Below, one piece after another: positions 5,571 to 28,430 of a stretch of DNA of 64,000 nt. The notes beneath the pieces were generated by a model. It was not told the DNA's origin, did not search any database, and saw only the letters and a program-made list of their open reading frames with translations. The DNA is from Branchiostoma floridae (lineage: Eukaryota; Chordata; Leptocardii; Amphioxiformes; Branchiostomatidae): contig NC_049991.1 of NCBI RefSeq assembly GCF_000003815.2, positions 12,754,470-12,818,469 of the forward strand, written 5' to 3'. Position 1 is the stretch's first letter, and each line of letters starts with the position of its first letter. The position numbers and the translations under genes are program-made.

Positions 5571-8500
5571 ACAATAAAAAACACATTAAACTCATAGTTT
5601 TAAGAATTACTTTTAAAAAGACTTGAAAACCTACCACTCCTCGCACTGCTTGGTCATGACTTCACCCTCCTTGTACTGAACCCCGGTGTCAGGATGCCAG
5701 CAGAAGCCTTACAAAAAATGATAGAACCTCACTGTTTATTGTGCTAAGTAGGATATTTGTGAAGTATATCTTACTGATAGAAAAAATTATGAAATGATGA
5801 TAATACAATAATGCATAAATACAGTATGTTTTGATTTTTGCTGTAAAGCAGGGCTTGTCTTTTGAATACAGAAAATATAGATATTATAATTGTACATCAA
5901 GAGATAAAAGTGTAGGAATTACTTACTAGGCACACACATCATCAGAGTACAGGCAGCAGAACCATCCCTTCCGCACATGCTGTGGATGGAAGGAAAACCA
6001 GCTCATCATCAATACTAGTATTTAGATCTGACCATTAAACAATGTATATGACACAAAGAGGTAAATTCTTCCAAAAAATGGGAAATAGGACTGAACGCAT
6101 CCTGACGTATCAGATCTAGACAAAAGAGAATATTTCAGACTATAGCCTAGTGATGGTAAAGCCTTCCCGAGCATACTCACCAGGTGTTACACTGGTCATA
6201 GTAAGACTGGCCAGGCCTGTAGAAGAAGCCGTCGACCTCACACATAGGTGTGGGCACCTCACAGTCCTCACGCTGGTAACACTCCATGCGGCCAGACTTG
6301 CAAGTGCTGGAAAACAAAACAAATTCTAATCACTAAAAACCACAAGACCATAGCATGTCCAGGTCAAAAGATACAAGAAATAGAATTTCTGTTGGAGTAC
6401 CAAGGTCACACACCAGGGGGCCCAAAATTGACCTTGGCCTTCATCTTCCCAACCCCTACCCACACCCGTATTATCATTTTAATACATCTAGAGGTTCTAT
6501 AGTTATGCTGATCACAAATATCTGGAAACACAGACAAACAGACACGCCATATACTACACCTCCATTTTTCATGGAGGTAATAATTAAGTCAGTATTGTGG
6601 TTTTAAAAGTTGTACATTGTTTACTAGGTTTAGCTCATAAATTAAAGAAAAAAGGAAATGTTTAAGATAACCATCCATGCATCCATCTCTTCTCACTGTA
6701 TACTTACCATTCCTTGCAGTCCTTGGTGATAGTTTGACCTTCCTGGATCCTAGAGCCGGTCATCGGGCAGTAGCAGACATCTACATATACAACCAACATG
6801 TCATAGTTATAATCTTACTGTCTTCATGTACATGTAAGAATATACTAGTTAACAGATACTCATTATAGCTGAAGAAAACGTAATGTTATAACTGTAATAA
6901 ACATTAAATTTGGCAAGTTATGATTTTCTCAGTTTGAAAGATAGACCTTGTAAAATGTGGTCTTACCGCTAAGGCATGCCATTTCAGTACAGGATGGTCC
7001 ATAAGGAGTGCAAGTACTGAAAGATGCAAGAAGAAGTACAAACCATAAATGCTTATAGAATTGGCCTTACCTTGAGGGCATCCCTTAAGGGTACACCTTC
7101 CTCCATAAGGAGTGCAAGTACTGGAAGATGCAAGAAAAGTTGTGTCTTATATCTTATCTTCTTAGGCATGGAAGCTTACTATACAAAATGACATTGGATG
7201 TTTTCATGTCTGTTTCTGAGCAGATATTGACCCTATTTTCTCAACATCATTGATCTTGTGAATTCTTACAGCTGCTATAAATAAAGTAGATTCGTCATCC
7301 AATGGATAGAAAGGATAGCAATAGCTCTTAAATGATGTTATTCACTCAATAAACAAGTACTACCAGCAAGAGAAAATTTTCAACATGACTCTGTCCTTGG
7401 TGCTGAATATCTGGAGGTGACAACAGCTTTCCCGTAACCCAAAATTACAGCATGACTGTGCTAAAGTTGGTGACATACAATACTTACCACCTGTTGCAGT
7501 CATCGTAGTAGGTCTCTCCAACCTGGAAAGTGATGCCCTTAATCTCACACTGGGAGTACACTGTGGACAATGGAGGAAAGTCAGAGTTATGTCTGATCAC
7601 TTTTTAATGATTGAAGGTAAAAACGACTTGTATACCATAGGGCATAGATATTCAGACAATCAGAAGTTGTTATCAAAGGTAAGAAGGTAATGGTTAGCAT
7701 TTTCTATGTACAACTACTTTCACCCTTTGTTGTGGTTTTTACTTTTATTACAGCAACATTTGATTCAATTCTACGCAGCAATACAAGGAAATGCATATTT
7801 GATGAGTGGCACTGACCAGGGGTGGTGGGCTCAACAGTGGTGGGCTCAGCAGTGGTGGTCATCTGGCAGTCCTCCTGTGGGATACAGGCCCACTTGCTGT
7901 CCTGGCACATGCTGGGATAGAGGGAGAGCAACCTTCACTCTACATTCTGAATACTAGCCACATGTTACACAATATAGGTTAACCCAAATTAGTAAGAGTA
8001 TACATCACATCTTAATCATGTTAGTACCCCTCACTCAAATAGATGGTGATACAGATACCATGGATATAATAATTCCAATTACGCTTTGTCTCTCTACAAT
8101 TTCTTTTAAACACAAACATTCATGCATGGCTAAATGTTATATGAATGTGATGTGAAGCTGTTAATATTATGTCATATCAATAGTAACTCAAAACAAAATT
8201 TAAGACATTTTCTAAAACAGGATTAATGCTGTTATTGTTAAGATACAGGTTTCTTTTATGAAAAAACAAAGGTTTTCTTATAAAAGTCAAGTGAACTTGG
8301 ACTGACCATTCCTGGCACTGGTGTGTGCAGACCTCTCCTGGCTGGTACTTGATGCCAGTGGTGGGGTGGTAGCAGACATCTGTGGGAAGACATGGCAGAG
8401 TTACTTAGCGCTGTTCAAAGATAGTTCAGGAGTGGAGGTGAACAGTGCTCCTCCATCGTAAACCACCACAATCATGAAGAAAATAACCTTGATCAGTTTC

Positions 8501-11500: not shown

Positions 11501-14500
11501 TTAACACTTGTTGATACTTACAGGGAGTGGTCTGGGTGTACTCTGTGGTTGTAGCAGTGTACTCGGTGGTAGTGGCAGTGTACTCAGTGGTGGTCTGAGG
11601 GGTGTACTCAGTGGTGGTGTAAGGGGTGTACTCGGTGGTGGCTGTTTCAGAAAAAAAGGAAGTTAGTCCGGCATTCCATATAACGGCCTCATGGCTTGCT
11701 GAACAACTCAGTTTATGTAACACGAATTCACAATTTTGTTATTGTTGATTGGTGTAAGGGGTGTACTCGGTGCCGGCTGTTCCAGAAAAAAAGATCAGAA
11801 GTTGATTTGCCATTCCACATAATGGCCACATGGTTTGACGAACAACTCAGTTGATGTAACACAAATTCGCATTTTTTTTTTAAATCTTGATTCTTAGACA
11901 GAACGCTTGTTTATGACATTTGCTTCGAGATGGTTACCATCTAGCTTGATGAATAACTGTTACAGTTCTACGTACAAACATTTGCCAAGGTTTAGGATTG
12001 TGTTCTTACTGCAAAAGCGCCAACTAAATCGGCTACATATAGTGGCAAGAAGCAGAACTCCAGTTCGAAGCACTGAGGAAGATGTCTGACAGACATCAAA
12101 ATGTCAGCACGTGAGAGACATTCTGGTTGTACAAAAGTAATCTCCAATAATTCCTATGTTCTACCAAGCTGATGAAATTATTTTGGGAAGTTCTGCGTAC
12201 TGTAGGTGGTGCAGTCAGGAGTGCCCTGTCTGAAGTGCCTGACGGTTCCCCTGATCTGGAAGCCGCGGGGGTCCACACAGTGGCAGTACTTGGTGGTGGG
12301 GTCACACTGCAGGGGGGCAAAGGTGCCGTCAGCCAGGCAGGTGGGGGTGTAGTGGCGGGGCTGGTTCCTCACCACCTGCAGGAGCTTCAGGCATGGGGGC
12401 ACCTCGTAGTCAGGGTACTCAGTGGTGGGGGTGGGGGTGGCTGAGGGAACAAGATGGCAGATAACGTCATTAAAACTAATTATCAATAAGAAATCTGAGA
12501 AAAACACTTTTTTCTGAGAATTAAGACTTAGTAACGGTAAGTTTAATGGGCACTAAAATAAGGTTCTTAATCTTTACAGTTCTTCATTTACCTTATCTCC
12601 TCCTCAACATATCAATTATTTGCACTCTCGTTTCAGAAAAAAAACGTGTTCTTGCTGTAGAAACTGGAGCAACTGATCTCCCAGGTCGTAGGTCGCATCT
12701 AATTAAATGCTTTGACCTTTGCCCAAACCTTCCCCATTACTAATTTGATTTCCCTACAGGAAGTAGTTTTGGCTTGGTTTGGTTATACAGATCTCCATTT
12801 GTGACTGATATGTCACTATTCTTCCTGGAGTCCAGGTGATTTGTGGAGAATCACCAATTCTACACGGAAGGATTTGCACCATCTCACACCGCACCATCGC
12901 ACGTGTGGGAGTTCTTTAACGTGCCTGGGGTATGGCTCTCCCCATACACGGGACCTCCATTTAACGTCCTATCCGAGGGACGGCCCTAGTCGAAGCTAGG
13001 TACTCATTTTCACCTGAGTAAAGTGAGGAAAGTCGTGTAAAGTGCCTTTCCCAAGGGCACAAGATCGGTGACACGGCAGCCGGATTCAAACCCACAACCT
13101 CTCGGTCACGGGCCGAACATGCTGCCGCTGCGCCATGCGGTCCCACAGATGTACACAGTAGTTAGTACACTGTTTCTGTATAAGAGTTTACCTATAGATA
13201 AGGCAATGTTTTTCACTATTTTCTACACACCATAGATGTACTCCTCGCAGTTGGGCTTCTCCTCCCAGGAGCGGACCAGAGTCTCGGGGATGATGGTGCC
13301 CTCGGTGGGGGTGACACAGTAGCAGTAGCGGCTGGTCTTGTCACACTGCAGAGGCTCGAAGGTGCCGTCCTTCTGACAGGTGGGCTTGGTCTGGCTGCGG
13401 CTGCGCAGCTCGTAGCACAGAGGGGAGGGGGTCCCAGTGGTGGTGTACTCGGTGGTGTAGGGGGTCACTGGGGTGGTGGTCTCTGTAAAAGCATATAGAA
13501 TGTTTATTGTAATTCTCATAAAACTTCAACATAAAACCATATTAATAGAATGAGTTTTCAAAGCAATGGATTTAGTAAAAAAAACTGTGATACAACAAGA
13601 CCATAGCATATCCAGGTCAAAGGATACAAAAAATGGTATTTCTGCTGCAGTACCAAAGTCACATACCAGTGGGCCCAAAATTGGTCTTGACCTTCATCTT
13701 CCCAACACCTACTCACATACCAAATATCATCTGTAATCCATTCAGAAGTTCTTGAGTTATGCTGACTACAAAAATCTGGAAACACAGACAGACCAAGGAG
13801 CTTTTATCAGGCTGATAAAAGCTCATTGGACAGCGCACAGACAGGCACACCCACAGTTATTCTACATTTTTCATGGAGATGATTTAATAGTTATATCTAT
13901 CTTCTGCTGCTCTGACTTTGAGTGTTCCTTCTCATTTGCAACAATATCGGATATGCATAGTGCTGCCAGTCTGTTGCTGTTATCAAAGAGTTGACCATGA
14001 ACATACCGAAGAAGGGGGTGCAGTCAGGCAGGCCTTGGCTGACGTGCTGCTCGGTGCCCTTGATCATGTAACCCTCCTGGTCCACACAGAAGCAGTAGCC
14101 GTTGGCGTGGCACTGGGTGGGGTGGTAGGACCCATCAGCCTGGCGGGTTGGCGGAAACGGCTGCCCGGTCGGTCGGCGGAAACCGCTGCCCGGTCCGGTC
14201 CGGAGGTTAGTTTTGGGGGTTTCGGGTATTGCATACAGCAGTGTAAGTGAAGTAAACAAAATGCCTGCTTAAATATTCCATAACGGTTGTTAGATGTTGC
14301 TACATGTTCAAAGGAAGCTGGCCAAATTACTTATCTTTAAAAAAAAAATTAATTTGACATTTCTTGGTAAGATTGTCCCATCCCCAGCTGCTACTTAGAA
14401 CGTCCCCCAGTACAGAACATCAGAAGTTCGCTACGTCAAGGTTGGTCAGAGTGGCGGGTCTTTGATCTAGTATCATATGTACCGCGGGCGCCGGCGACAA

Positions 14501-20500: not shown

Positions 20501-23500
20501 GGATAATAAACGGTCACTCACTCCTTCCTGAGGCTGAAGATGGTCTCGAAGTCACCCTTGCCGGTGTGCGGGACATCGTTGTTGATGTACTCGGTCCAGC
20601 ACAGGCCCTTCTTCACCTTCTCGCAGCGGGGACCCTCCAGCCCAGGCTGGCACTGGCACTGGTCAGGGGCGACACAGACACCGCCGTTCTGGCACTCCTT
20701 CCTGCAGACGGCTGTCATGGAGAAAACACCCATAAGTGACCAACTGTGAGGAAACGTTGAGCCATAGCCTTTTTTTTGTGAATTGCCGAAGTATGACCAA
20801 CTATGACTCGCGAATCCAGTTCAACAATTTCATTTGAACCGGAGTCAGCGTTTCGGTCTTCTACTTCCCTACGTACGGCTGTAGAAGACATCGTGTCAGA
20901 TCAAACTGGATTAAAACTTTTAACTTGTAAAAACAACTATCTAAAATCTTAAGAAGATGATGATAAGGCATCTGAAGATGGGAGACCACTTACGAATCTG
21001 GCATCCGGTCTCAACATCGCCAGTCCAGCCCCTGCAGCACTTGTAGGCGGTGATTGGTTCTCTGTGAAGTGTAAGTTGGGTTTATGAACTTTCAAGACAT
21101 AGCATACTACGGGAAGGTCTTAAAGGAATTGATGATAAGGTGCAGAAGATAAGGCCGAGCAAGCTGTTTTGTCTTACAGCAACGTCCATGTGAAGTATAT
21201 GAACGGGTTACCGTACAAAGGTAATGATAATGTTGTTACTTTGACTACTTTTCCATGCACGTGTCCAATTTATTAATAGTGGCAAAGGTGAAGGTCACAG
21301 CAAAATGCGTAAAGTTATCGGTACCGCCAAAACTTTCTTACACAACAAACCCATTAAATGTTTGAATGTGCATTTCATATATTGCCTCAATCCATAAAGG
21401 TGCCAAACCTACCTCCTGCCGTGCCTGGGTGTCTTGGTATAGGAGCAGACCCTCCCGCTCCTACAGTGTTATGAGAGACATGAAATATTATTGTATCAGG
21501 TAGAAAGCATGCTTCCAATACAAAAATTCCTAATATTCATAGTACCCTAGATGGATTCAGCAGTGGTGTGGGAAATGCGACAACTATCTTGCCTATAGAC
21601 ATAGGCATGTTGAGGTTAGAATGTACTAGACGGATCGGTCGATTGGATTCGACCTTGAGTTGACAGCCACGTGATTCCCATTTCTTACACTTTCAATAAG
21701 ACAGGCTGTTGGAATGATTTATTAGTTTTCGATGGCCAAAGTGCAAATAACCTTGGCAATTAAAAATGAAATCTTCGAGTTGTGTAAACACCGATGTGTC
21801 ATACTGTCAATTATGTCAATTGAAGCTGGTACGGGGATTTCAATGTGAGTTACATAAGACACATAAGACGAATTAGCAAAGAAAGAGCTAGAACGACATC
21901 GGATCAAGAAACCTTTGCTCAGTAAATCAAAGGTTATGCACATGTTTGTTAATCATAGGTTACAGCGCTGTAAAGTCCATTTGGGGGGCGGTGAAACGTT
22001 TGCTAAGTGAGTTCAAAAGTCCGTTTAAAAGGTTCCAATCTCGTAACGCAAACAGTTCTTGCATCATGTTGAGATAGTTGTCTCGGAGATTGAACACCTG
22101 GATGGACACAGGGTGCTACAATCGCTCGATTTGTGTATTTAACTCCCGCTGAGTTCTACACGCCCAACGATACATTTCACGCATACATGTAACAGTTACC
22201 TGAGGGAGGTTTGGAAAGCACATGCAGAGTAGGATTCCATGTAATATCCTCAAGAGATGTACATGACTCTATCTATTCTAGCCCGGGCGAAGGATATTTA
22301 ACTTACTTCGCTTGTTGTTTATTCAACATTTCACGCATACTGTAACAGTTACCTGAGGGAGGTTTGGGAAGCACATACAGAGTAGGACTCCATGTAATAT
22401 CCTCAAGAGGTGTACATCACTACTCTATCTATCTATCCTCGTATTCAGTCTTCGACGAAGAATATTTAACTCATTTCGCGTGTTGTTTATTCAACATTTT
22501 AGCCTTATCAGATATTCACGAATAGCCAGCAAATATCTACCATGTTACACAAGCCAAAGAGTTGCCGCCGCAAGATATACGCGATGTTTAAGACACAGAT
22601 GTTTTGTTAGTTTTCTTATTAATCTGTGAGCTACACAGAGAGGATGTGTCCGTACCAGGTTGGGTCGGTGGTGTAGGGGATGTCGGTGGTTGTCATGGTA
22701 ACCTGTGTCTCGGTGGTGGTGGGTTCCTCCTCCCACTCCCAGTACTTGATGACCTTGGCTTGCGCCAAGACGACGAAGCACAGAAACAGAAGCACCTGTG
22801 GGTAGATTCGCGCGGAACTTTTATAGACTTGAACTAACTTTTTGGTCAATATAACTTTATTGCGCAACAATTGTACATAGTACAAAGCATGGCACCTACT
22901 AATACAAAACTACTGTATACATAACTATAAGGTTAATCTACATGATACAAAGGTGCATAAGTATGGGATGGAAATGGTCTTTTACAATCATTGGAGGGAT
23001 TTCTAGCGTCTAGACAGTCTTTGATATATTTTCCTATGTATAGCATGCAGGGGTATCACAAAGTCATAATATATTTGAATGGAGAGATTTTCGATGATTT
23101 AAACCTATTCGTATTCACAGTAAGTACNNNNNNNNNNNNNNNNNNNNNNNNNNNNNNNNNNNNNNNNNNNNNNNNNNNNNNNNNNNNNNNNNNNNNNNNN
23201 NNNNNNNNNNNNNNNNNNNNNNNNNNNGGTGACTTTTTTTCTTGTCAAATACAGAGCTGACCTTATATCAAATCGTCATCTTACTCGTAGAATTCCTAAC
23301 GGATCACCCGTTAGTGTGATCATTTCGTGCACTAAGGTTTTCTACACAAGTTTGGTATCGTATAGACATAGTTTCAGAAGACACAGCCGACGCCTACCCT
23401 AAAAAGAGTGCCTACAACATTTTTTGCATTGATATCAAAGCTGCAAAAACTTAACTTTGCTTTTTTGAACTACACAAGGCGATAAACATGTACATATATA

Positions 23501-27573: not shown

Positions 27574-27823
27574 GTAACCACCGTAACGCTTCCTCTTTCA
27601 CTTTCACAGAATACGGGCTGCGAGTTTCAGTCACATGAAAACGTTGCTGATGTGATCGGCTGCGGGAGATCCAACCACACCATCTATTGTCTATCTAACG
27701 ATGTATAAGATTGTTTCATTTGATACAAAATAGTGGCCATGGTATAAGTTTCCAAACCTTCTGACGTCTTTTCACTAACATGTCCCCATCTCATTATTAT
27801 GTTCTAAGTAAAACTGTCGTTTA

Positions 27824-28430
27824 TATATACTTAGGCAGCATTATTACTATGTTTGGTGGCACAGAAGAAGACGTCAAATCTAGGCTTGGCAAAGCTACTG
27901 GTATGTGGCAATACTTGAGAAAATTCTGGCTATCTAAGCAAATCAGTGTACCGTTAAAGTTAAAGTTATTCCAGACTATTGTGATGCCAATAGCCACATA
28001 TGCATGTGAATCGTGGAAATGCACTGCAGAGGTAACGCCATCACTAGACACTTTCCAACGTAAATGCCTTAGGACAATCCTAGGCATCTCCTGGCGTGAC
28101 CACGTCACAAATGAAGAGCTCATGCAAAGAGCTAAGGTGGCTCTAGCCAGTGAGACAGTCAGAAGAAGAAGATTGAGATTTGTTGGACATGTATGGCGTC
28201 TATCCGACAAAAGAACAACAAAAACAGCTATGTCATGGGCTCCTAAGGGCACCCGCCCCAGGGGCAGGCCTAAAACTACACTAAGACGGACAATCTTGAA
28301 TGATGGAAGGAAAATGGGTATAAACAGTATGGAGAGCATGGCAGTAGCAGCGCAAGACCGCACGCTTTGGACAAGATATGCTCGACGAGTCGACCAATGC
28401 AACAGTGTTGCGGGAGGAACTAAGGTCTAA
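27824..28430 (+). mobile_element. 5'-truncated LINE: C-terminal part of a reverse transcriptase ORF
   Basis: An open frame of about 200 codons. It starts at a YLGSII motif followed by VKSRLGKATGMW, typical of the end of non-LTR reverse transcriptase (thumb), then LKLKLFQTIVMPIATYACES. The tail has RRRRLRFVGHVWRL and TRPRGRPKTTLRRTI, common in LINE-derived "endonuclease-reverse transcriptase" proteins. It ends AAQDRTLWTRYARRV shortly before the stop at 28,428. The catalytic motif and endonuclease are absent, so the copy cannot move by itself. Confidence 0.85.

Follow-up and report, generated by a model that had tools for sequence, protein, structure and literature searches.

Tandem, likely mutually exclusive exons that may exchange the reactive loop in a pacifastin-like module of Branchiostoma floridae

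The gene and its duplicated second-half exon

The window (the whole 64,000-nt stretch of Branchiostoma floridae DNA that was analysed) contains a minus-strand gene that extends from about 22.8 kb, where its start is uncertain, towards position 1 and that encodes a large protein of many modules, probably a secreted one. The 44-exon model of the gene is automatic; it lacks exons present at about 5.7-5.3 kb, and its start is not to be relied on. In the exon series as read by eye, only one module position has two intact second-half exons, termed a and b, all others having one per module. The exons of this module and of those that follow it are:

7560-7488, minus strand: upstream exon, first half of the module (...CEIKGITFQVGETYYDDCNR), with Cys1, Cys2-Asn and two bases of the Cys3 codon; from splice sites and phase
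7120-7071, minus strand: alternative exon a (32a), 50 nt, coding for the last base of Cys3, Cys4, Gly and Cys5-Thr-Leu-Lys-Gly-Cys6; from sequence, splice scores and frame
7070-7017, minus strand: 54-nt gap between exons a and b, GT...AG, with one yUnAy site
7016-6967, minus strand: alternative exon b (32b), 50 nt, coding for the last base of Cys3, Cys4, Gly and Cys5-Thr-Glu-Met-Ala-Cys6; from sequence, splice scores and frame
6780-6708, minus strand: downstream exon, first half of the next module, without Asn after Cys2; either copy joins it in frame
6306-6181, minus strand: exon with the end of the next module and the first half of module M11
5979-5927, minus strand: exon for the second half of M11 (CTLMMC), a module with a Pacifastin_I score of 47.9 bits

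The two 50-nt exons lie exactly 54 nt apart, at the positions where an earlier note on this DNA had put them. They form a direct repeat with 104-nt spacing and 77% identity over 75 nt and, being adjacent, homologous, of equal length (50 nt) and in the same phase, are confirmed as tandem duplicates. The copies agree throughout their first 19 nt and differ at 15 sites, all in the last 31 nt; with randomly placed differences, so long a stretch of identity at the start would have a P of about 1e-4. The shared half had been described as CTCTPYG; more exactly, the first C is a codon split over the intron. Both copies have an AG acceptor and a GT donor, in agreement with the splice sites claimed for them. 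Compared with 17 other exons of the same gene, scored leave-one-out, the acceptors (8.8 bits for a and 7.9 for b) lie within the gene's range of 0.0-13.3, and the donors are modest, their 6.3 (a) and 6.4 bits (b) being lower than 16 of the 17 reference donors (range 4.2-13.4). Most of these reference exons carry a TG before the donor, which is absent from a and b. That the pair is an assembly artefact or an allelic duplication is extremely improbable, as the exon-pair region matches a single place in a DNA search of the 513-Mb genome and as differences at 15 of 50 exon sites are many for alleles. A search for a close paralogue with the neighbouring exon as query likewise found its own locus alone.

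A profile made from 18 other second-half exons re-found those 18, and neither a nor b was among its best 45 matches; both are therefore atypical members of the gene's second-half series, and further duplicate second-half exons could be missed by the same scan. A minus-strand fragment at 2813-2770, in an intron of M17 (TCKIGLVRCQNIREG), resembles by eye a decayed second-half exon; it has neither an AG acceptor nor the last Cys and is unlisted in the profile scan. Between 8852 and 1070 (minus strand) two module types roughly alternate, the first with CN and a four-residue Cys5-Cys6 loop, the second with no Asn and a loop of five or six residues. The first-half exon of the last module (1470-1410, minus strand) lacks Cys2 and Cys3 as predicted, which points to a degenerate module or a wrong boundary. 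The two blocks of six-cysteine modules are separated by several thyroglobulin type-1-like repeats at 16604-9150 (minus strand), and the one repeat tested, at about 9330-9155, is confirmed by Pfam. Thyroglobulin type-1 repeats are often inhibitors of cysteine proteases, so that the protein may combine two types of inhibitor. Other local tandem duplications are found at 22188-22421 (81 nt, 94% identity) and 11659-11879 (82 nt, 80% identity), and a plus-strand open frame at 27765-28430 resembles by eye a remnant of the reverse-transcriptase region of a retroelement.

Reading frame, predicted RNA folds and constraint

A single copy, a or b, spliced between the upstream exon (7560-7488) and the downstream exon (6780-6708) maintains the frame, as had been claimed for exons 31 and 33, whereas using neither copy produces a stop at the junction and using both shifts the frame, with a stop after 23 residues. 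Only single inclusion stays open, and the one-or-the-other logic of the earlier note is thus borne out by the reading frame. Its further claim that the gap is probably too short for an intron agrees with the usual steric rule, by which splicing is blocked when the donor lies less than about 50 nt from the branch point (PMC5740500; PMC7969005). The 54-nt gap contains a single yUnAy match, a motif match only, whose A is at position 25 from the exon a donor; the next-smallest intron in the 44-exon model has 117 nt. Exons 4a and 4b of human OGDH offer a similar case: their gap is short, and mutual exclusion is enforced by the mere 25-41 nt that separate the upstream donor from the branch points (PMC7969005), although gene and organism differ and the branch site considered here is known from its motif. 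The steric rule is not absolute, since human cells splice a 56-nt intron with the help of a dedicated factor (PMC8363638). The frame conflict is a barrier to double inclusion, a further, steric barrier being a prediction, and on the sequence it is likely that a and b are mutually exclusive.

It is proposed that both copies would be used, one per transcript, and that double inclusion would be blocked mainly through the branch site 25 nt from the exon a donor, with folding of the 54-nt gap perhaps adding to the block. Transcripts that contain both copies or neither would then be lost through their premature stop. The same early stops could also be the purpose of the pair, if common a-b inclusion or skipping served regulation by lowering expression, and joining reads do occur in some human exon pairs with a frame conflict (PMC5740500). 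This regulatory reading is nevertheless very improbable, as a-b joining should be rare across so short a gap, in which the one branch site is 25 nt from the donor, and as the change of the loop would have no explanation.

The 221-nt region of the pair folds more strongly than its shuffled versions (z -3.0, 0 of 200; z -2.6 with another 100 shuffles), and the most extreme of 51 segments of the same length along the gene (start 7150, z -3.3) overlaps it. Three elements of the predicted structure involve splice sites:

7027..7074, minus strand: predicted 17-bp hairpin pairing the exon a donor with the pyrimidine-rich stretch before b; from folding only
6982..7022, minus strand: predicted hairpin with a perfect 9-bp stem, TTTCAGTAC/GTACTGAAA, over the exon b acceptor; from folding only
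6964..7093, minus strand: predicted 15-bp duplex between 7093-7077, in the second half of exon a, and 6980-6964, which comprises the end of exon b and its donor; from folding only

Together the predicted stems would cover both splice sites of exon b, the pyrimidine-rich stretch before it and the donor of exon a. The idea that exon duplication can generate competing RNA structures has been published (PMC6071210).

Differences between the copies cluster in the loop half: 15 of its 31 sites differ, compared with 4 of the 58 aligned sites that make up the first exon half and the adjoining intron (Fisher P 1.2e-5). The intron part of these 58 comes from local alignments with gaps, about 20 nt long on either side, and contains splice signals, so that some of its conservation is expected. 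Beyond these flanks ungapped identity is 8/29 upstream and 16/43 downstream, which may merely mark the ends of the duplicated unit. An old duplication with saturated introns was considered and withdrawn, as the 104-nt unit together with its similar flanks of about 20 nt covers most of the 54-nt gap. Within the last 31 nt the two copies agree in Cys5, Thr and Cys6, and each of the remaining seven codons after the loop glycine encodes another residue in b than in a. When 15 differences were scattered at random over these 31 nt, Cys5, Cys6 and an open frame survived in 1.6% of trials, and in about 0.3% if Thr was to be kept as well. Retention of splice sites, an open frame and the family-defining residues in both copies would seldom be expected from random change. 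The count of silent against amino-acid-changing differences between a and b is not significant (P 0.25); positive selection, sought by this counting, is not shown, what is seen being fast change or replacement of the loop segment.

One of the copies might be a non-functional by-product of the tandem duplication, included in transcripts rarely or never. The modest donor scores of both copies would suit such a by-product, as would the predicted fold over the acceptor and donor of exon b, and a fairly recent date for the duplication is compatible with the similar intron flanks (about 20 nt per side). We judge it unlikely, given that AG, GT, length, open frame, cysteines and Thr have been kept in both copies despite half of the loop sites being different.

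Family of the module

The earlier note had named the exon a VWC half-module. It does encode half a unit of six cysteines, namely the second half with Cys4-Cys6, but VWC is not the top Pfam family and was rejected as a name for the module, the forms alone reaching 20.0 (a) and 20.3 bits (b), below the cut-off of 27.6; stretches of 224 residues that hold several modules pass the VWC (PF00093) cut-off. For the 41-residue module alone, Pacifastin_I is the best Pfam family with 29.3 bits for form a and 29.7 bits for form b (cut-off 27.9), and the scores become 25.8 and 27.3, below the cut-off, on trimming to Cys1-Cys6. PF23244 (VWF) is unlisted for either form alone; on the 224-residue stretch it scores 42.4 bits with form b against 32.2 with form a. 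Among PDB matches with E up to 10, pacifastin inhibitors account for 16 of 18 with form a (best E 1.4e-4) and for 15 of 17 with form b (best E 7e-4), which also matches VWF at E 7.5. M11 (6306-5927) has the top Pacifastin_I score among the nine modules or module forms tested singly, its 47.9 bits being close to the 49.7 and 53.4 bits of the two true pacifastin fragments scored.

Four human VWF/mucin E-type segments, in all of which PF23244 is the best family, score 19.7-30.4 bits on Pacifastin_I, one of them (30.4) above the cut-off. There are five Pacifastin_I matches in the lancelet's own genome, three above the cut-off, and the best of them, locus L002, comes after a TIL-like segment (TIL being named by eye). 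With these controls the Pacifastin_I score was rejected as stand-alone proof. A profile of 11 CN-type rows, chosen for their Asn after Cys2, matches pacifastins and VWF/mucin E modules about equally well, the best pacifastin reaching a single-domain score of 37.9 bits and the E modules about 36 bits, and a profile of four other modules matches VWF/mucin and one pacifastin at E 0.2.

Pacifastins are a family of serine-protease inhibitors in which the disulphides join cysteines 1-4, 2-6 and 3-5. The module has the hallmarks of the family, namely Asn after Cys2 (CNRCTC), Gly in the Cys4-Cys5 loop (TPYG) and Cys5-Thr-x3-Cys6, which reads CTLKGC in form a and CTEMAC in form b. It differs from pacifastins of the strict 2009 pattern, with 16 residues between Cys1 and Cys2 (9-12 required) and 2 between Gly and Cys5 (3-6 required), and agrees with the ancestral type of 2026, which has six cysteines and allows 13-20 residues between Cys1 and Cys2. 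Of the 19 module forms tabulated (M20, whose first exon lacks Cys2-Cys3, left out; number M18 unused; boundaries of M1 uncertain), 12 have Asn after Cys2 and none fits the strict pattern. A looser ancestral-type pattern, with Gly-Cys5 relaxed to 2-6, fits 10 forms and also 3 of the 7 comparison modules. These seven comprise the four human segments together with those own-genome loci, three out of five, in which the search pattern was matched; in L006 an extra Cys was skipped. Lys or Met is found at P1' in 9 of the 12 CN-type forms and in none of the 7 comparison modules (Fisher P 0.003, for small, hand-picked groups).

Ancestral-type pacifastins (PMC13388995) and Trichoplax tapp-1 (PMC2689174) have the same order of six cysteines, the Asn after Cys2, the Gly in the Cys4-Cys5 loop and a Cys1-Cys2 stretch of 13-20 residues. 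Each domain of tapp-1 is encoded by two exons, one for Cys1-3 and one for Cys4-6, the same split as here (PMC2689174). Ancestral-type pacifastins also accompany VWC and thyroglobulin domains (PMC13388995), of which thyroglobulin type-1 repeats are present in this gene too.

The main rival of a reactive-loop swap holds that the exons are mutually exclusive but belong to a VWC/VWF-E-type adhesion or ligand-binding module without inhibitor activity, in which a binding surface is switched. VWF/mucin E-type (VWC/FnI-like) modules have the same cysteine order and, in three of the four segments compared, a CNxCxC core. They match the gene's CN-type profile nearly as well as the best pacifastin does and themselves score on Pacifastin_I, while the gene's interleaved modules match VWF/mucin and the best own-genome Pacifastin_I match follows a TIL-like segment. 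The acidic P1 of exon b, moreover, recurs in four of the seven comparison modules. The four E-type segments differ in that none has the Lys or Met signature of the CN-type modules at P1', and both forms alone differ from them in placing Pacifastin_I on top with PF23244 unlisted; the PDB matches of both forms are almost all pacifastins, and M11 reaches 47.9 bits on Pacifastin_I. Taken together this rival appears rather unlikely. The family remains debatable because VWF/mucin E modules are near relatives, and in view of the VWF/mucin controls, the trimmed scores and the pattern fits the module is called pacifastin-like and not a proven pacifastin.

Two possible loops for one module

The best reading, with chances that seem about evenly balanced, is that the exons are mutually exclusive and give a pacifastin-like module one reactive loop or the other. 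Each copy would supply the Cys4-Cys6 half of one such module, including the P1-P1' position of the loop, and the switch would change which protease or partner the module binds. The earlier note had the swap alter one cysteine loop; the Cys5-Cys6 loop does change, and this was too narrow in that the end of the Cys4-Cys5 loop and the residues after Cys6 change as well. P1, P1' and the following residue all differ between forms a and b. CTLKGC of form a aligns with CTLKAC of the PDB entries 1kgm and 1gl1, which we take to be the chymotrypsin inhibitors SGCI and PMP-C, the name PMP-C appearing in the PDB listing. P1 of pacifastins is the second residue of the Cys5-Cys6 loop, and Leu at this position goes with chymotrypsin-like targets (PMC13388995). 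Form a would present a Leu-Lys site of the chymotrypsin type and form b a Glu-Met site, a pair that is reported in molluscan and non-metazoan pacifastins (PMC13388995). It is possible that form b has no inhibitor activity.

Serpin-1 of Manduca is reportedly the subject of work by Jiang in 1994 and 1996. In serpin-1 of Manduca sexta and in PpSerpin-1 of Pteromalus, as would be the case here, alternative exons replace the reactive-site region of the inhibitor, which makes insect serpin-1 the nearest functional parallel of the exon a/b swap (PMC10513286). Serpins differ in that they are large inhibitors acting by conformational change and carry their alternative exons at the C-terminus, whereas exons a and b, two exons only, serve one small module of six cysteines among the many modules of a long protein. 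Another parallel comes from amphioxus Fgfr, whose IIIb and IIIc exons are also tandem and mutually exclusive in a chordate and also change a region of ligand contact; they differ in encoding part of a receptor Ig domain, in having been shown by RT-PCR and in being regulated by Esrp (PMC5703972). The splice variants of insect pacifastins shown in PMC2689174 drop whole domains, in contrast to the loop swap proposed here, and among the papers listed by searches of the open-licence literature none was recognised as dealing with mutually exclusive exons for the reactive loop of a pacifastin.

Loss of pacifastins towards deuterostomes is one of two hypotheses put forward in PMC2689174. Word searches of the text of PMC13388995 gave no mention of chordates, cephalochordates, deuterostomes, lancelets or Branchiostoma, and no example of a chordate pacifastin was found in the excerpts of either paper.

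It may be suggested, if more tentatively and at somewhat less than an even chance, that a chordate possesses a small canonical-type inhibitor with splice-switchable specificity, Leu-Lys in one form and Glu-Met in the other, through sterically enforced, RNA-folded exons that would be an independent counterpart of those of serpin-1. With one module, two loops and a short gap that contains one predicted branch site, the locus provides a clean test case. If the suggestion is true, loop swapping by alternative exons, known for insect serpins, would also have arisen in a small inhibitor module of canonical type, and a lineage in which the 2009 survey was obliged to assume a loss would possess a pacifastin-like, splice-tunable inhibitor.
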